Part shown: one piece after another, positions 37,989 through 46,197 of the stretch
Layout of the letters: every line of letters starts with the position of its first letter
How positions within the stretch are numbered: the first letter of the stretch is position 1
Assembly (NCBI GenBank): GCA_028289425.1
Contig: JANQPL010000017.1
Location: forward strand, 186,001-250,000
Reading direction: 5' to 3'
Source of the DNA: Alphaproteobacteria bacterium
GTDB taxonomy: Bacteria; Pseudomonadota; Alphaproteobacteria; JANQMY01
Length of the DNA stretch: 64,000 nt
The notes under the pieces: generated by a model
Databases searched by the model: none
Told to the model about the DNA's origin: nothing
What the model saw: the letters and a program-made list of their open reading frames with translations, nothing else
Program-made: the position numbers and the translations under genes

Positions 37989-38888
37989 ATGTCGCAAGGA
38001 AATCCCAAGGTTTTGCCGCCAATGCCCGCTTTAAAGGCCTTTGAAGCGGCAGCCCGTCACATGAATTTTAAGCATGCGGCCACGGAGCTGGGCCTGTCCG
38101 CCTCGGCGGTGAGCCATCAAGTGCGCAAGCTCGAAGACTATTTGCAAGTACCCCTTTTCAAGCGCGGCTACCGTAAGGTGGAACTAACGGCGGACGGCGC
38201 GGCCTATGCGGCCGATCTCATCCGGGGCTTTCACGAAATTCGGTCGGGGACGGAACGTTTACTGAATGCGCGGCGGCGCGAACCGTTCCGTGTCAGCACC
38301 ATGCCGGTCTTCGCCGCGCGCTACCTCACCGAAACCATCGGCGATTTTGAACGGCAGAATCCCGAACTCGATGTGCGCTGGGAGATCAGCCACACCTGGC
38401 GCGATTTCGACAAAGATGATTTGGATGTGGCGATCCGCTACGGTACCGGCGCGTGGCCGGGTCTGCATGCGGAGCGTCTGTTCAACATTCGCGGGCGTCT
38501 TGCCTGCGCGCCGTCCATGCTCGACGGCGAAACGCCGCTCCAAAAACTTGAAGATCTTAGACACCACGTGTGGATCGGCGTTCAGCAGGCCCCAAATTCT
38601 TGGGCGGAATGGACCGAAGCCGCCGGCATGCCGGATCTTCAACCGGCGCGCATTCTTTGGTACGACACGCTGGTGGGCGCACTGCAAGCCGCCCAAACCG
38701 GGCTTGGGTTTGTTCTGGGGCCGGACGTTTTGTTCGACCGCCACATTGCGTCAGGTCAATTGGTCTATCCGTTCGATGTGGTGTCCAATTCCGCCGAAAG
38801 TTATTTTTTCGTATGCCGGCCTCAAATGCGTGACGACCCCAAAGTCAAGCGCTTCCGGTCCTGGCTCAAGAAGCAGATGGACGCCTAA
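37989..38888 (+). CDS. LysR-family transcriptional regulator (GcvA-like)
   Basis: A regulator of about 299 aa. The winged helix is MPALKAFEAAARHMNFKHAATELGLSASAVSHQVRKLEDYL (the GcvA-type opening), followed by a type 2 periplasmic-binding-like effector domain (FRVSTMPVFAARYLTETIGDF). The ATG at 37989 is preferred to the track start at 37965. It is transcribed away from the alcohol dehydrogenase, the classic layout for a LysR activator and its target; the 132-nt spacer should hold its binding site. Confidence 0.9.
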   Translation: MSQGNPKVLPPMPALKAFEAAARHMNFKHAATELGLSASAVSHQVRKLEDYLQVPLFKRGYRKVELTADGAAYAADLIRGFHEIRSGTERLLNARRREPFRVSTMPVFAARYLTETIGDFERQNPELDVRWEISHTWRDFDKDDLDVAIRYGTGAWPGLHAERLFNIRGRLACAPSMLDGETPLQKLEDLRHHVWIGVQQAPNSWAEWTEAAGMPDLQPARILWYDTLVGALQAAQTGLGFVLGPDVLFDRHIASGQLVYPFDVVSNSAESYFFVCRPQMRDDPKVKRFRSWLKKQMDA

Positions 38889-39303
38889 GGCCGCCCGCTT
38901 GCACCAGCCGCGTGATGGACATGCCAACCAGCATGGCCACCACAAAGGCGATGGATTGTTCCGGCGCCGCGCCCAACGACGCGATCGCCGGGCCTGGGCA
39001 GAAACCCACCAATCCCCAGCCAATACCGAAAAGCGTGGCGCCACCGACCAATGGCAGATCGATGTCGTTCCGTGTGGGAAGTGCAAAATTGCCGGCAAAT
39101 AGGGGGTGGGGGCGCCGTGTCGCCAGCCGATGGCCCATGAAATTCACGGCAACCGCGCCCGCCATCACAAAAGCAAGGCTCGCATCCCAGGCGCCGAGGA
39201 TATCCAGAAAGCCCAGCACCTTGGCCGGATTGATCATGCCGGAAATTACCAGTCCCAAGCTAAACAACAGGCCGATCAGAAAGGCGGAAACGTGTTTCAT
39301 CAT
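38866..39303 (-). CDS. YeeE/YedE (DUF6691)-type membrane protein, sulfur transport
   Basis: A 145-aa protein with four or so helices. It shows AFLIGLLFSLGLVISGMINPAKVLGFLDILG and GIGWGLVGFCPGPAIASLGA, the second half of the YeeE/YedE sulfur-transport fold. Its partner is the next gene upstream (3 nt apart). The pair corresponds to the PmpA/PmpB-type couples thought to move thiosulfate or sulfane sulfur. The 3' end overlaps the LysR gene by 23 nt. Confidence 0.85.
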   Translation of the reverse strand: MMKHVSAFLIGLLFSLGLVISGMINPAKVLGFLDILGAWDASLAFVMAGAVAVNFMGHRLATRRPHPLFAGNFALPTRNDIDLPLVGGATLFGIGWGLVGFCPGPAIASLGAAPEQSIAFVVAMLVGMSITRLVQAGGLRRPSAS

Positions 39304-39306
39304 GTC

Positions 39307-39726
39307 TTAGCCTCCTAACCCGTGCCGCACGACGAAAACCGTCACCATGGCAACGCCCATGAATATGGCAGTCGCCACAAACGACCGCGGTGAGAGGCGG
39401 GGCAAACCGCACACACCATGGCCGGACGTGCAGCCGCTGCCGATGACGGTACCGGCGCCGACGATCAATCCGGCGGCGATCAGCAACGGCATATTGTTGG
39501 TGACGGTGAAGGGGATCGATGATTGGGTTGCGGCTGTAAAGGCCACCGGGGCTGCGACCACGCCCAGCACAAAGGACAAGCGCCACCCCCATTCGCTTTC
39601 AATGGGCGGTGTCAAACGGCTGACAATGCCGCTTACCCCCATGACTTTGCCGTGGGCCGCCATGAGCAGTGTGGCGGCAAGCCCGATAAGCGCGCCGCCG
39701 ATCGTTGCAAGAACGAAATCGTGCAT
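39307..39726 (-). CDS. YeeE/YedE-family membrane protein, sulfur transport
   Basis: A 139-aa partner of the DUF6691 protein. The ATG at 39726 follows CAGGAGGTCCTA, a strong ribosome site; the 217-aa track ORF extends too far upstream. It contains GAGTVIGSGCTSGHGVCGLPRLSPRS, the conserved YeeE/YedE cysteine segment, and several helices. It should form one half of a sulfur-compound channel. Its ATG overlaps the ArsR-type regulator stop by one base (TAATG), so the three genes form one operon. Confidence 0.87.
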   Translation of the reverse strand: MHDFVLATIGGALIGLAATLLMAAHGKVMGVSGIVSRLTPPIESEWGWRLSFVLGVVAAPVAFTAATQSSIPFTVTNNMPLLIAAGLIVGAGTVIGSGCTSGHGVCGLPRLSPRSFVATAIFMGVAMVTVFVVRHGLGG

Positions 39727-40052
39727 TAGGACCTCCTGTTTTGATTGTTTTTTGGGGCACAAAACGTGTCGTACAGAAACATCATGATTTTCATGATGTT
39801 CGGATCGGCGATGGCGTAGAAGATGGATTGTCCATCGCGCCGTGTACGAACAATCCCTTCCCGCCGCAAAATGGCGAGTTGTTGTGACATGGCGGGCGGC
39901 TTCATGCCGACGGCGGCGCACAGCTCGCCGGACGACATCTCTCCCTCCACCAGCTGGCACAACACCATCAACCGGCCGGGTGCCGACAGCAGCTTCATAT
40001 AGCTACTCACCTCGTCGGCGGTTTCTTCCATCTGCGCGATGTCTAATTTCAT
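39726..40052 (-). CDS. ArsR-family regulator of the BigR/SqrR persulfide-sensor type
   Basis: A 108-aa winged-helix repressor from the ATG at 40052. The recognition region is SSGELCAAVGMKPPAMSQQLAILRREGIVRTRRDGQSIFYAI. Cys32 (in LMVLCQLVEGE) and Cys98 (in LYDTFCAP) are 66 residues apart, the same spacing as the redox pair in SqrR (41/107) and BigR (42/108), which form a tetrasulfide bridge when sulfane sulfur rises. It heads an operon with two sulfur transporters, just the right context. An operator-like palindrome overlaps the region in front of the start. Confidence 0.85.
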   Translation of the reverse strand: MKLDIAQMEETADEVSSYMKLLSAPGRLMVLCQLVEGEMSSGELCAAVGMKPPAMSQQLAILRREGIVRTRRDGQSIFYAIADPNIMKIMMFLYDTFCAPKNNQNRRS

Positions 40053-40058
40053 GAATGC

Positions 40059-40082
40059 ATATTTGCGCAATTATGCAAATAA
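40059..40082. promoter_or_regulatory. Candidate operator of the BigR/SqrR-like repressor
   Basis: An inverted repeat ATTTGC-N8-GCAAAT (40061-40066 with 40075-40080) in AT-rich sequence, directly upstream of the repressor ATG. Its form and place suggest autoregulation, as is usual for BigR. Confidence 0.6.
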
Positions 40083-40123: not shown

Positions 40124-40215
40124 GCGTCATTCGCCGGTTTAGCCGGCGAATCCATCTATCGTTAGGAATGCGCGGGTGGCGGGTTGGATTCGCCGATCAA
40201 ATCGGCGAACGACGC
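40124..40215. repeat. Inverted repeat GCGTCATTCGCCG...CGGCGAACGACGC
   Basis: The ends match in 12 of 13 positions, and each half holds its own small palindrome (TTCGCCGGTTTAGCCGGCGAA and TTCGCCGATCAAATCGGCGAA, counted loosely). It sits between the repressor operator and the P450-like gene. With the next repeat it fills the 370-nt gap; no gene is seen there. Confidence 0.65.
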
Positions 40216-40250
40216 TGAGTGTTTTCAGCCAGGCGGTGCACTTTTTAGCC

Positions 40251-40406
40251 GTCATTGCGAGGGCCGGCCGCAAAGCGGGCGTGCCCGCGGCCTGCCTTCG
40301 CCGAAGCGAAGCTTAGGCTTCGCGCAGGCAGGCAATCCAGAGTCGTTGGGCACGGAGCAAATGATTCTGGATCGCCACGCATTCCATTGGAATGCTCGCG
40401 ATGACG
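40251..40406. repeat. GTCATTGCGAG-type palindromic repeat, copy 1
   Basis: Ends GTCATTGCGAG and CTCGCGATGAC, with GCAATCCAGAG and ATTCTGGATCG halves inside. The same element recurs at 48058. Elements of this type are widespread between bacterial genes. It ends 18 nt before the stop of the P450-like gene. Confidence 0.75.
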
Positions 40407-40424
40407 ACTTTGGATGTTTTCGGC

Positions 40425-41804
40425 TTATCGCTTCCCAAACACCACGGGAAGGTGCCAGCACGTGTGCATGTCGCCCACGCGCAAGGACTGAAGGGCCGGG
40501 GCAGCGCCGTCTGCCGGCTTGAGATCTTGCAGTTCCTCAAGCAGAACGCGTGAGGCGGTGACGGCCGTATCGCGTGTCAGGGCGTAGAGAGAACGCGGCC
40601 TTTCTTCGGGCAGCGCCGGGAATTTGCTCGGTGGGCCCAGCCCAAAGGCGATGCCGGAGGCGAGCCCGTCGGCGCGGTATTGGCCGCGGGGTTCGCGCTG
40701 GCACACATCCTTGCGGTCAATGCGGAAGGCATCCGGATCTTCAAAGATGCCCGGGTCGCGATTGGCGGCGGCCGCCGAACAAATCAACAGAGCGCCTTCC
40801 GGCAGCAGTTGTCCGAACCGTTCCACTTCGTGCCTTGCGAACCGCTTGGCCGACAGAATCGGCGGCGAATGGCGCAAGGTTTCGTAATAGGCGTATTTCA
40901 AAAGCCGCGTTTCGTCCGCCACCCGGGCAAGCTGATCCGGATGGGTCAGCAACAGAAACCACATATTGGCGAGGGCGCCGTGCAAGGTTTCGTGATCCGC
41001 CTCGAGCACCGTGGTGGCCACATCTTCCGCCGTCGCCGGCCCGCCTTCCAGGTCAAGGGTTGCGATGGCGGAGATAACATCTTCCCCCGGATCCGAACGC
41101 CGCGCCTCAAGCAGAGGCCGGACAAGATCTGCAAGCGCTTGAACCGCTTGCTTGCCGTCCGCTTGAGCCTTTGGCTCCCAGGTGGCACCGCGCTGGGCGC
41201 GCCAATAAAGATTTGCAAAAGCGCCTAGATCATCCGCAGGCAGATTAAGCTGGTGCCCCAGAAGTTCGATGGCGAAACGCGCCGCAACGTCCAGCGCGAG
41301 ATCGGCTGTTCCGCTCGATGCCACGTCCGAAACGATGCGGCGGGCGATGGCTTCTGCGCCCGCATCCATCCGTTGTGCCTGAGCGGCCAAGACGGGAAGC
41401 TCGAAGCGGAGGTCACGGCCAAATCCCAAAAGGCCATAGGTCCACAGTTTCGAGCGGGTTTCAAAATTGGCGTCATCGGTGAAAATGGACGTCACATCGT
41501 CATAGCGCGTGACCCAATAGGCGTTGCCCAGCCAATCCCGGTAACACGGATAGTTCTCGCGCAGGGTGGCCAAGATGGGATAGGGATCGCTGCGATACTC
41601 ATCGGAAATCAAATCGCTCGGCTTTAGTTTCTCCGTCGACTGACGGACCCGCTGACGCTGATAGATTTCGTATGAGCGGTAGCCTTCCGCATTCTTGACG
41701 TGCCGTGGTGCTGCGGCCACGCCGTTATTGCCGACAGTCAAACGCCCTTGCCAGAAGCTCTGATCTGGGGGCGCGGCGGATTGTTTTTCTTTGTCCAGTG
41801 ACAT
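40425..41804 (-). CDS. Cytochrome P450-like protein lacking the heme-ligating cysteine
   Basis: A 459-aa P450 homologue. The N-terminal fold is well kept (PYPILATLRENYPCYRDWLGNAYWVTRYDDV), the I-helix has an acid-Thr pair in EADHETLHGAL, and the K-helix ExxR is in YYETLRHSPP. The heme loop, however, reads FGLGPPSKFPALPEE: where P450s have FGxGxxxC the cysteine is Lys. Other reading frames there do not restore a Cys, so a simple frameshift is not the cause. Without the thiolate it cannot be a normal monooxygenase; it may be an auxiliary partner, like EryCII/DesVIII, or have new chemistry. It starts just after the true P450 gene (ATG 41804; track start 41834). Confidence 0.85.
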   Translation of the reverse strand: MSLDKEKQSAAPPDQSFWQGRLTVGNNGVAAAPRHVKNAEGYRSYEIYQRQRVRQSTEKLKPSDLISDEYRSDPYPILATLRENYPCYRDWLGNAYWVTRYDDVTSIFTDDANFETRSKLWTYGLLGFGRDLRFELPVLAAQAQRMDAGAEAIARRIVSDVASSGTADLALDVAARFAIELLGHQLNLPADDLGAFANLYWRAQRGATWEPKAQADGKQAVQALADLVRPLLEARRSDPGEDVISAIATLDLEGGPATAEDVATTVLEADHETLHGALANMWFLLLTHPDQLARVADETRLLKYAYYETLRHSPPILSAKRFARHEVERFGQLLPEGALLICSAAAANRDPGIFEDPDAFRIDRKDVCQREPRGQYRADGLASGIAFGLGPPSKFPALPEERPRSLYALTRDTAVTASRVLLEELQDLKPADGAAPALQSLRVGDMHTCWHLPVVFGKR

Positions 41805-41809
41805 GCGCT

Positions 41810-43258
41810 TCACACAACTTCGAAATCGATCCACAGATCGCGCACGGAAATGAGCCCGATGGGCACCAAGCTCTTACCATCAATGTCTTTCTTCATGCGT
41901 TCCACATTGATGCGCGGATTCTTGAAATGCTTGGCCAACACCATGGAGCCCAGCACCGCTTCCTGGTGCGAGATCCATGCGCCCGGACACAGATGCGGCC
42001 CCACGCCAAAGGCCATGTGGCTGCAGCGGCCCTCTTTCCTGAAACCGCTGCGCAAAATCTTGCCGCTGTAGAGGTCGGCCCGGTGGATATCGAAATCTTC
42101 CGGGTTCTCGAAGATGCGGTCGTCGTGGTTGGCCGAAAAATCGACCATCTGAACCAGAGATCCCGCCGGGATGGTCACCCCGTGCAGTTCCACGTCATAG
42201 GTATTGTGACGCGGTTGTCCGCCGATGGGTGTGGAATGACGCAGGGTTTCGTGAAACGCGTTGTCCCACAGCGCCTCGTCCGCCATCACTTGCGCAAATT
42301 GCTCTGGATGCTGCAACAGAAGGTACCACATATTCATAATGGCGCCGCGGGTTGTCTCGCCGCCACCGCCGACGATCAGCGCCACATTGGAGGTGATTTC
42401 TTCCGTCGACAGATAATCGCCGTCGATCTTCTCTTCGCAGAGTTTAGAAATGATGTCCTTGCCGATGGACTTGCCGTCATCGCCATAGAGGAAGGTGGGC
42501 TGCTTGCGCCGCTCGCGTACGATGGGCTCCAGATAGTCTTCCAGATCCTGCCGCGCTTCGAGCCCTTGCCGGTGGGTGTCGGACCCGCCCAGCCCCGACA
42601 TCATCGAATTGTACCAATAATAGAACTGCCCCCGCGCTTCTTGAGGAAAGCCCAGCACTTCACACACCACGCGGATGGGGAATTCGTTGGCAAAGGCCTT
42701 GCCCAATTCTACCGTGCGCGTGCCGTCTTCGTTTTTCACATACCAGTCTTCGTCGGCGGCTTCCCACGCGTCGATCATTTCGCGCGCCAGCCGCTCGATG
42801 GACGGCAGGCGGTTCTTCAGCGCCTGTCCCACGAGATGTTGGCCATAGAGATTACGCCGGCGTTTGTGCTCGATACCGCTCAGCTCAAGCTGGGTGTTGC
42901 CCAGCACCCCGCTCGACGAGCCTTTGGGAATGGTGTTGAAGCCCTCATCGTCGAAATAACAGGTGGTGATGTCGTCATAGCGTGTCACCCAATAACAATT
43001 GTGCAGCGTGTCGTGATAGACCGGGTAGTGGTCGCGCAAGATCTTGTAATAGGGGTAGGGGTTGCGCGCGAATTCGTAGCTGTCGAAGACGCGCGGGTCG
43101 AAGAGCGGCGTGCCGTCGGGGCTACGTCCCATATCAGCCGCTTCGCCGATGGGCATGAGGGGAATTGCGGATGACGAACTTTTTTCAACGTCGCGCCCGT
43201 TCGTGTCTAATTCCAATACATTGGCGATGGCGGCGGTGATGGCGTTCCCCGATGACAT
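41810..43258 (-). CDS. Cytochrome P450 (canonical)
   Basis: A 482-aa bacterial P450 with every hallmark: I-helix ALIVGGGGETTRGAI, K-helix ETLRHSTP, and heme loop MAFGVGPHLCPGAW. It lacks a membrane anchor, so it is soluble and should be fed by a ferredoxin. The 4Fe/3Fe ferredoxin gene at 43341 is divergent and close; the 2Fe-2S ferredoxin at 29022 is another candidate. The substrate is unknown; P450s of this layout often oxidise terpenoids, steroids or alkyl compounds. The P450-like gene follows with a 5-nt gap. Confidence 0.93.
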   Translation of the reverse strand: MSSGNAITAAIANVLELDTNGRDVEKSSSSAIPLMPIGEAADMGRSPDGTPLFDPRVFDSYEFARNPYPYYKILRDHYPVYHDTLHNCYWVTRYDDITTCYFDDEGFNTIPKGSSSGVLGNTQLELSGIEHKRRRNLYGQHLVGQALKNRLPSIERLAREMIDAWEAADEDWYVKNEDGTRTVELGKAFANEFPIRVVCEVLGFPQEARGQFYYWYNSMMSGLGGSDTHRQGLEARQDLEDYLEPIVRERRKQPTFLYGDDGKSIGKDIISKLCEEKIDGDYLSTEEITSNVALIVGGGGETTRGAIMNMWYLLLQHPEQFAQVMADEALWDNAFHETLRHSTPIGGQPRHNTYDVELHGVTIPAGSLVQMVDFSANHDDRIFENPEDFDIHRADLYSGKILRSGFRKEGRCSHMAFGVGPHLCPGAWISHQEAVLGSMVLAKHFKNPRINVERMKKDIDGKSLVPIGLISVRDLWIDFEVV

Positions 43259-43340: not shown

Positions 43341-43631
43341 ATGACCTATGTGATTACAGATGCTTGTATCGACGTGAAAGACGAGTCCTGCGTGGCGGTC
43401 TGCCCGGTCGATTGTATCTATGCGGATGAAGATGACCGCATGCGCTACATCCACCCCACTGAGTGCATCGATTGCGCGGTATGTGTGGAGGCCTGCCCCG
43501 TGGCGGCGATCTATGCGGAAGCCGACCTGCCGGCAGACGCCCAACCGTTCCTCGACATCAACGATCTGTGGTTCAAGGACAAGCAAGCTGCCCGCGCTCA
43601 GGTGGAAACCCAAAAACCGGCGGATCATTAG
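43341..43631 (+). CDS. Ferredoxin with 3Fe-4S/4Fe-4S motifs
   Basis: A 96-aa FdxA-type ferredoxin. The first motif is [23 protein letters not shown] (Cys 9, 17, 21) and the second [17 protein letters not shown]. The first has the wider spacing of 3Fe-4S sites. The C-terminal helix has [16 protein letters not shown]. It may deliver electrons to the divergent P450 or its neighbours. A palindromic repeat follows. Confidence 0.9.
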
Positions 43632-43821: not shown

Positions 43822-44586
43822 TTAACCCGTAATCCTTTTGTACGCCGGCTGGCGGGGCGGCAGGGTGACGGGTTCGCCCGCCCAGGCGCCGATGTTCTCA
43901 CCGGTGCGGCCGTCTTCGATGATGTCGAGGGCCAATTGGGCGATCTGTTCTGACTTCATCACCGTTGCTGCAAATTCCGGCGGCAGCTCGCCATTGGGGA
44001 ACGCACCGCGCAGCATGGGTGTATCGGTGGCTCCCATGCAAATGGCGTTGACCGTCACACCATGCTCGGCCAATTGATTGGCCCAGGCATCGGTAAAGCC
44101 GTTCAACGCCCATTTGGACGCATTGTAGAGATCGGTCATCGGCGAATTGGTGCCCGGAGATTTTGCGGGCAACACGTAATAGGCGCTCATATTGATGATG
44201 TTGCCGCCGCCTTGCTTCAGATGCGGCACGCAGGCGCGGGATAACATCAACACGCCCTTGAGATTGGTGTCCATGATGTAGTCCCAATCTTCAAGCGCCT
44301 GCTCCCAAGAGGACGTGACCGGTGTCTGCCGCCAATGGGCCGCGTTGTTCACCAGAATATCGATGGCGCCGAACCGCTCGACCGTGGTGGCCACGACCTG
44401 CTCCACCTCAGCGCGTTGGGACACATCGGCACGTAACCCCACGACACCGCTCGCCTCCGAAATGGCTGGGTTTTCATCGACGGCCACAACGTTCGCGCCT
44501 TTGTCCGCGAAGAGCTTGGCGACGGCCTGGCCAATGCCTTGGGCGGCGCCGGTGACGATCGCTGTCTTGTTCTCAAGCATCGCCAT
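43822..44586 (-). CDS. Short-chain dehydrogenase/reductase
   Basis: A 254-aa classical SDR from the ATG at 44586, which has GGAGG six bases upstream. The cofactor site is TGAAQGIGQ, the NNAA motif is DILVNNAAH, and the catalytic Ser-Tyr-Lys set is in INMSAYYVL and LYNASKWAL. The acidic residue in VVAVDENP favours NAD(H). It overlaps the next SDR by 14 nt. The pair should oxidise alcohols made by the P450s, though this is only context. Confidence 0.9.
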   Translation of the reverse strand: MAMLENKTAIVTGAAQGIGQAVAKLFADKGANVVAVDENPAISEASGVVGLRADVSQRAEVEQVVATTVERFGAIDILVNNAAHWRQTPVTSSWEQALEDWDYIMDTNLKGVLMLSRACVPHLKQGGGNIINMSAYYVLPAKSPGTNSPMTDLYNASKWALNGFTDAWANQLAEHGVTVNAICMGATDTPMLRGAFPNGELPPEFAATVMKSEQIAQLALDIIEDGRTGENIGAWAGEPVTLPPRQPAYKRITG

Positions 44587-45472
44587 GGAGCGCCTCCTCT
44601 TGGATGTAGAGAAGCGGCAGAGCCGGCTCCAGCTTCGGCGGGCGGCCGACACACAAATTGATGTTGTTGGCGTTACGCCCCCCTGGCCCTTCTTTCAACA
44701 GGTCGATCACTACTTGGGCCACATCTTCCTTGGCCATCCAGGTGGCGATTTCCTTTTGCTGCTCTTCGGTTTCCTCGCTCGGCGTTTGAGGAAACCTGAA
44801 AAAGTCGCGGATCATCCAGGAATCGGTGGCCCCCATGCACATGGCATTCACCCGAATGCCATGGGGTTTGAGCGCCTGTGCCCACGCAAACATCAGCCCG
44901 TTGAGCCCCCATTTCGAGGCATCGTAAATGTCCATCATGTGGCCGCCGCTGGTGGGACGCCGTGCGTCCGCCCACGGACAATTTGGGTTCTTCGGACATT
45001 GATCGTGCGGCGCGCCGCAGGTGAACATGTGGTCGGTGGCGATGTTGACAATCTCGCCGCCGCGGCCTTGCTCAAGCATCTGCGCAATCACCGCGCGGCC
45101 GATCAGGAACTCGCCCTTTAGGTTGGTGCCGACCATTTCCTCGTAATCATCGAGGGTTTTGTCGAGGGCGTCATCCGCCATACTCACTTTGCATTTGCCC
45201 GCATTGTTGATGAGGATGTCGATGCCACCTAACGCGCTGATGGTTTCGTCCACAAAGCGCCGTACATCATCAGGCTTCGACACATCTGCGATCATACCGA
45301 AGGCCCGCACGCCCTTCGCTTCAAGCTGAGCTGGCAGCTCCATGATCTCCGGTCTTATGTCGCAGACGGCAACGTCGACGCCTTCCGCAGCGAGAGCATG
45401 TGCATAGGCCGGGCCGATGCCTACGGCCGCGCCGGTGACGATTGCGGTCTTGCCGTTCAGGGAAACAGTCAT
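44573..45472 (-). CDS. Short-chain dehydrogenase/reductase
   Basis: A 299-aa SDR from the ATG at 45472, with GGGAGAG upstream; the track start at 45616 is 48 codons too early. The motifs are TGAAVGIGPA, ILINNAG and the Tyr-Lys pair in MDIYDASKWGLNG, with VNIATDHMF holding the serine-equivalent. A longer insert with several Cys (HDQCPKNPNCPW) lies between strand 5 and the catalytic Tyr, where it could bind metal or form a lid. It is divergent from the SnoaL-like gene. Confidence 0.88.
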   Translation of the reverse strand: MTVSLNGKTAIVTGAAVGIGPAYAHALAAEGVDVAVCDIRPEIMELPAQLEAKGVRAFGMIADVSKPDDVRRFVDETISALGGIDILINNAGKCKVSMADDALDKTLDDYEEMVGTNLKGEFLIGRAVIAQMLEQGRGGEIVNIATDHMFTCGAPHDQCPKNPNCPWADARRPTSGGHMMDIYDASKWGLNGLMFAWAQALKPHGIRVNAMCMGATDSWMIRDFFRFPQTPSEETEEQQKEIATWMAKEDVAQVVIDLLKEGPGGRNANNINLCVGRPPKLEPALPLLYIQEEALHGDA

Positions 45473-45606
45473 GGACAAGCTCTCCCAACAAGTTTGTTTT
45501 AGGGTAGTATACAGAGAATTCGAATGGTCAGAATAAACGACTGTGTTTTCGTTACGAGGCCCGCCCTCGTGCAGAAAAAACACAAACGCAGGGAGGCGTG
45601 CAAAGA

Positions 45607-46197
45607 ATGGATCCATCAGCGGAAGAGTTGCGCGAACTTTTTCACAAACAAAAAATCACCGACGTCATCATGACCTATTGCCGGGCCATCGATCACATGG
45701 ACGAAGCCCTTCTGCGCACCGTGTTCCATCCGGATTCGCAACATGAACATGGGTTCAAAGGCCCCAGCAGCGATCCGACCGCGGAGTCCTCCCCTGGCAA
45801 ACCTGGGGACTTTGTGTCCTTCGCACTGGCCACCCTGTCAACCCACACCCACACCCACCACCAGCTTGGCAACATCTTTGTGGAAATCGAGAACGAAAAC
45901 CTGGCGTTCACAGAAGCCTATTTCACCGCCTTCCACCGCATGCGTTCCAAGAGCGATCCCAAATCGGGGCCCATGGCGTTCGATACGGAAATGGATTTCT
46001 GGGTCGGCGGCCGTTACATGGACCGGTTCGAACGGCGCCATGGCCGCTGGAAGATCGCCTGCCGGAAAGCGACCACGGATTGGCAGCGCATTGAATCGCC
46101 AAGCTCCATGGGCATGCCGGAGGTACCTGCCCATCTCAAAAGTCATCAGAGTAGGGATGATCTGGTCTATCAGCGGCGCGAACTCCTGGTACCGTAA
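45607..46197 (+). CDS. SnoaL/NTF2-like protein (SnoaL_4 type)
   Basis: A 196-aa protein from the ATG at 45607 (the track starts at a GTG at 45598). An NTF2-like barrel is suggested by ELRELFHKQKITDVIMTYCRAIDHMDEALL, HTHHQLGNIFVEIENENLAFTEAYF and FERRHGRWKIACRKATTDW. Relatives near P450 and SDR genes act as hydratases, isomerases or as small subunits of oxygenases. It heads a four-gene plus-strand run ending in a P450. Confidence 0.82.
   Translation: MDPSAEELRELFHKQKITDVIMTYCRAIDHMDEALLRTVFHPDSQHEHGFKGPSSDPTAESSPGKPGDFVSFALATLSTHTHTHHQLGNIFVEIENENLAFTEAYFTAFHRMRSKSDPKSGPMAFDTEMDFWVGGRYMDRFERRHGRWKIACRKATTDWQRIESPSSMGMPEVPAHLKSHQSRDDLVYQRRELLVP

Follow-up and report, generated by a model that had tools for sequence, protein, structure and literature searches.

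Results

Organisation of the locus

The window, meaning the whole 64,000-nucleotide stretch of alphaproteobacterial DNA analysed here, carries on its minus strand a pair of P450-related genes: a canonical P450, which we call CAN, and behind it a P450 homologue without a heme site, which we call PS (Table 1). PS begins 5 nt past the CAN stop codon, in agreement with the initial annotation, which had placed it at that spacing directly behind a normal P450. An in-frame GTG further upstream in the PS ORF, at 41834, is a possible alternative start, but since the CAN stop codon lies at 41810-41812, the ATG at 41804 is the more likely one. The two genes are probably co-transcribed.

Table 1. Coordinates of the genes and sequence features discussed in the text
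Feature	Position	Strand	Remarks
PS, P450 homologue without a heme site	40425..41804	minus	459 aa
CAN, canonical P450	41810-43258	minus	482 aa; intact heme site; heme loop FGVGPHLCPGAW
Ferredoxin, Fer4	43341-43631	plus	divergent from CAN, 82-nt gap
Short-chain dehydrogenase (SDR)	43822..44652	minus	possible pathway partner
Second short-chain dehydrogenase	44573..45616	minus	
PS, ExxR (E308-T-L-R311)	40872..40883	minus	helix K; E308 and R311 in 77/77
PS, D270	40995..40997	minus	I helix; 77/77; replaces invariant G299 of the CAN oxygen-binding motif
PS, codon of K394	40623..40625	minus	axial Cys position; alignment of 77
PS, rebuilt "Cys loop", residues 390-408	40581..40637	minus	GPPSKFPALPEERPRSLYA; alignment of 77

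We read the Cys pattern of the divergent ferredoxin as that of a 7Fe type, and a homologue of this gene lies upstream of 32 of 68 CAN-PS pairs. SDRs are found near the pair in many loci, and the neighbours differ with lineage, comprising SDRs, Rieske oxygenases, Rieske ferredoxins, CaiB-type CoA transferases, SnoaL-like proteins and further P450s. Many gammaproteobacterial loci have a member of a third P450 family downstream of PS (for example L012:7328-8608, L026:6153-7439, L035:7304-8596 and L137:6087-7373). This family is ~40% identical to CAN, has the loop LGFGxGxHFCxGY, and also occurs elsewhere in genomes that have the CAN-PS pair.

Just downstream of PS in the window (38866-40070) there is an ArsR-type regulator, assigned by Pfam, followed by two YeeE/YedE sulphur transporter-like genes recognised by eye; 12 loci of Acidimicrobiia type have a Sulf_transp protein in the vicinity of the pair. 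At 40124-40215 and 40250-40410, in the gap that separates PS from the following gene, lie a palindrome with 31-nt arms and a dispersed repeat. Parts of 40250-40410 have 31 matches across the genome, most of them to a 30-60 nt core. These sequences look like a REP-type element.

PS belongs to a conserved family with a P450 fold

By sequence, PS matches Pfam PF00067 (5.8e-8) and, among PDB entries, best CYP134A1 (6e-27). Its AlphaFold2 model (pLDDT 84.5, pTM 0.83) has 3nc7 as its top Foldseek match, with a TM-score of 0.87 by target length. Sequence and fold homology cover most of the protein, which places PS within the P450 superfamily as a fold family; together with the ExxR motif, invariant in the family, these matches bear out the P450 fold signals reported initially. 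Among solved structures, CYP134A1/cypX (TIGR04538; PDB 3nc3-3nc7) comes closest in sequence to PS as well as to CAN, and closest in fold to PS, but it is an active heme enzyme with its Cys, and ~22% identical to PS; we know of no pseudo partner for it. The source genome has 37 P450-like genes in 5.4 Mb, and PS has by far the lowest Pfam P450 score among them.

With PS as the query, 84,980 prokaryote genomes yielded 71 loci at 44-76% identity. These loci and the genome G040 supplied 76 members, to which the window PS was added, giving an alignment of 77 sequences with identities of 41-76% to the window protein. The family ranges mostly over Alphaproteobacteria, Gammaproteobacteria and Actinomycetota as judged by contig label, and the labels of single contigs may be wrong because nearly all are metagenome-assembled. 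At least 90% conservation is reached at 108 alignment positions. The most conserved part is the meander and Cys loop (residues 364-408), where 20 of 45 positions are at least 97% conserved, compared with 2 of 142 in residues 119-260. Four semi-conserved cysteines lie outside the heme loop, at 87, 342, 368 and 449, with all four present in 53 of the 77 sequences; a metal or Fe-S site was considered for them.

Across close pairs (dS < 0.4, Nei-Gojobori), the dN/dS of PS is 0.03-0.26 and in most cases exceeds that of CAN, values which indicate that PS is under purifying selection. The window PS and its nearest relative, L009, are uninformative as a pair because their dS is saturated (2.1).

The heme site is dismantled and its loop rebuilt

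In the window PS the heme loop is FGLGPPSKFPALPEERPRS, and its axial position is occupied by Lys, as initially noted. The lysine itself, however, is not a conserved feature: column 394 of the family holds K (37), I (19), R (9), V (5), M (2), N, E, A and T, and never Cys, and column 395 holds H, Y, F or W. Within loop residues 385-408 not one of the 77 members carries a Cys, so that all lack the axial Cys in FxxGxxxCxG of a functional heme-thiolate P450. In its place stands a near-invariant motif, GxP[ST]xxPAxPxxRPRSxYA, in which G390, P392, P396, P399, R402, S405, Y407 and A408 are 96-100% conserved, and the loop is ~10 residues longer than that of CAN before helix L. Judged from the alignment, the mark of the PS family is the lost heme site together with the rebuilt loop, and not the lysine.

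The losses extend to the heme propionate ligands. The CAN family shows no variation (100% conservation) at H131 and R135 in helix C, or at R350, H422 and C424. By analogy with P450s in general, we take H131, R135, R350 and H422 to be propionate ligands. We matched PS to CAN by profile-profile alignment (probability 100, 33% identity, 384 columns), with helix C aligned by eye. In PS, H131 corresponds to Ala (61/77), R135 and C424 to variable residues, and H422, the His two before the Cys, to P392 (76/77). Thus the helix C H/R and Cys-2 His/Arg ligands of a functional P450 are gone, and R321, the counterpart of R350 (76/77), is the sole propionate-contacting ligand retained.

The PS model lacks a separate helix C, with helices at 119-123 and then 136-162, where the CAN model has one at 128-142. 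The basic helix C of P450s usually docks ferredoxin; its sequence EHRRRRN is invariant in CAN and absent from PS. Because this helix is missing, PS is presumably not an electron acceptor.

PS is strictly paired with a canonical P450

All 75 testable PS genes have CAN directly upstream on the same strand, which answers the check suggested when the locus was annotated: the homologues are invariably neighbours of a canonical P450. Of the 76 members, 74 passed the adjacency test automatically; L028 was added as paired, its upstream ORF extension having exceeded the limit, and L062 was left out of the count as its PS starts at a contig end. When PS is taken to begin at the first start codon that follows the stop of CAN, the distance between the genes falls within -11 to +37 nt for 69 of the 72 pairs. 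Several pairs overlap by 4 nt, an arrangement typical of coupled translation.

The same association holds at the level of whole genomes. Among 928 genomes, PS and CAN co-occur in 20, PS is never found alone, and CAN is found alone once. In the class of the window (385 genomes) both are present in the same 7, with neither alone; in an actinobacterial order (248 genomes) PS is present in 12, every time adjoining CAN; and in a gammaproteobacterial order (295 genomes) both are present in 1. The lone orthologous CAN belongs to the actinobacterial order (G609), and is cut by the contig end. CAN-type paralogues without an adjacent PS do exist (G263:C13, 64%, and G385:C41, 50%); both keep the heme Cys, and both genomes also contain a CAN-PS pair.

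The pair has also been duplicated and inherited as a unit. It is tandemly duplicated as a whole in L019, L020, L022 and G040 (G040:C1:179083-184824), with two CAN subtypes, FGVGPHLC and FGVGPHMC, and the nearest relatives of the first and second PS copies lie in the same loci as those of their own CAN copies. The PS and CAN distance matrices correlate with r = 0.74, a value that still includes shared species history, against a maximum of 0.10 in 500 permutations. It is near certain that PS represents a heme-less P450 family that is conserved and occurs in a pair with a P450.

Origin of the pair

In a maximum-likelihood tree of PS, CAN, their relatives and the other P450s of the window genome, the PS sequences group in one clade (SH-aLRT 100), whose stem is long. 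A clade with a support of 98 holds PS, CAN and the 37-50% relatives of CAN, and CAN is closer to those relatives than to PS. This topology fits a scenario in which a paralogue from the CAN lineage lost its heme site once, long ago, then changed fast and finally entered stasis. An origin of PS as a recent tandem duplicate of CAN is not supported, as PS branches outside CAN and its ~40% relatives, and on a long stem. A look for plasmid-borne close relatives of PS found none, only ordinary-looking P450s at ~37% identity or less.

Discussion

On purely genomic grounds, a partnership between PS and CAN is probable. We think it rather likely that PS is a heme-less P450 paralogue, that is, a pseudoenzyme, which assists the P450 upstream of it as an obligate partner subunit with no catalysis of its own. 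The initial annotation had raised the idea that PS serves the adjacent P450 as an auxiliary or allosteric partner, and this idea draws support from the constant pairing, the lack of the Cys in all homologues, and the purifying dN/dS. In such a scenario, the two proteins would form a hetero-oligomer through coupled translation; the divergent ferredoxin would deliver electrons to CAN via its invariant basic helix C, and CAN would oxygenate the substrate, with PS needed for its stability, active-site conformation or substrate delivery. As residues 364-408 are the most conserved region of PS, the meander and rebuilt loop, which have no heme left to hold, would be the most likely contact to CAN. 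The SDRs, Rieske oxygenases and further P450s nearby make it probable that the substrate is alicyclic, terpenoid or steroid-like.

There is a hint that the old active-site cavity of PS still does something, with D270 invariant in the I helix and H271, T273 and H275 conserved close by. One could therefore imagine a two-subunit P450 oxygenase whose heme-less relative is obligate, and whose emptied cavity perhaps binds the substrate or a second cofactor and passes it on to CAN, a version that we regard as possible but somewhat doubtful. Alternatively, PS could be an independent non-heme enzyme or ligand binder that has repurposed the cavity and acts either on the CAN substrate or on its product, for instance as an isomerase, hydrolase or carrier. 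The PS-specific conservation within the former active site (D270 in 77/77, T273 in 75/77, H275 in 70/77 and H271 in 61/77), of R321 (76/77) and of Cys 342, 368 and 449 speaks for this idea, and consecutive steps of a pathway would also give strict pairing. However, no known catalytic motif was found in PS, conservation is highest in the proximal loop and meander and not in the cavity, and the pathway genes nearby differ among taxa while the pair stays constant, which argues for a functional tie of PS to CAN rather than to one pathway; we consider an independent function unlikely.

The remaining explanations fare worse. The initial annotation also considered that PS might bind heme through an unusual ligand; this would have to be Lys in the window protein and His or another residue in other members, and the retention of the P450 fold, the ExxR motif and the propionate-contacting R321 would be compatible with it. 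Yet the variability of columns 394 and 395 leaves no common ligand there, position 394 being free to hold Ile, Val, Met or Ala; the helix C ligands and the Cys-2 His are lost as well, and D270 intrudes distally, all of which makes heme binding very improbable. A glycosyltransferase activator of the EryCII/DesVIII type would show a similar degeneration, in that it keeps the P450 fold but has neither the Cys nor helix C (PMC3391682), and PS does match TIGR04515 at 1.2e-29. Its score, though, is 103.9 against a cut-off of 343, while ordinary Cys-bearing P450s reach 210-227, and the constant neighbour of PS is a P450: no glycosyltransferase is present among the ten window neighbours scanned, or among the 25 commonest of the 58 Pfam families in 83 flanking ORFs. 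We give this assignment hardly any credence. Least probable of all, to the point of near exclusion, is a pseudogene, a sequencing error or recent decay, with which the loss of the catalytic residue would be compatible if taken alone. The loss is common to 76 relatives from several phyla, the ORFs are full-length, and dN/dS in close pairs is strongly purifying, not that of a relaxed pseudogene; homologues that uniformly lack the Cys, taken with these ratios, show that PS is neither a product of decay nor of a frameshift or sequencing error, as the initial annotation had also held for the frameshift.

Returning to PS as a partner subunit of CAN, its mode of action would be activation by a dead relative, for which precedents of two kinds exist. 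EryCII is a P450-derived activator of a glycosyltransferase that has lost helix C (PMC3391682), and it shares with DesVIII, AknT (TIGR04515) and PS a P450 fold with no axial Cys or heme, the loss of helix C and the retention of the I/J/K/L core. The comparison with EryCII/DesVIII made at first annotation thus holds as an analogy and fails as family membership, by score and by genomic neighbours: the partner enzyme of those proteins is a glycosyltransferase, whereas that predicted for PS is a P450, and they come from actinomycete antibiotic clusters, unlike PS. In trypanosomes, dead paralogues are reported to raise the activity of the active relative in the case of both the AdoMetDC prozyme (PMC5201418) and deoxyhypusine synthase (PMC3663545). 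PS resembles these prozymes in being an inactive homologue co-conserved with its partner enzyme; activation of the live relative is shown in trypanosomes and proposed for PS, and the trypanosome proteins have unrelated folds, belong to a eukaryote and involve no heme enzyme. Another known case is EutEFG of euthailol biosynthesis, a split, inactive P450 suspected of assisting another protein of the pathway (PMC11574762), and thus similar to PS in its suspected helper role. EutEFG is nevertheless a single case in three fragments, in transition according to its authors, whereas PS is intact and constitutes a widespread, conserved family.

Pseudo-P450 auxiliaries and dead-paralogue activators are already known, but the open-access literature searched, which covered P450s described as heme-less or pseudo, heterodimers of P450s, EryCII/DesVIII and activation by dead paralogues, gave no description of a P450 paired with a pseudo-P450, nor is such a pair named in the titles and abstracts on steroid degradation. 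Proteins like PS are easily overlooked, since surveys drop them: one P450 survey counts "pseudo-P450s" but leaves them out of its analysis (PMC7369989).

If the partnership holds true, an obligate P450/pseudo-P450 pair in Proteobacteria and Actinomycetota would represent a new subunit class for the P450s, which are among the best-studied superfamilies of enzymes. Bacterial P450s are usually regarded as catalysts that require redox partners only; the need for a second subunit of this kind would offer a possible reason for the failure of some P450s when expressed alone. CAN and PS would then provide a direct bacterial test case for the control of live enzymes by their dead paralogues.
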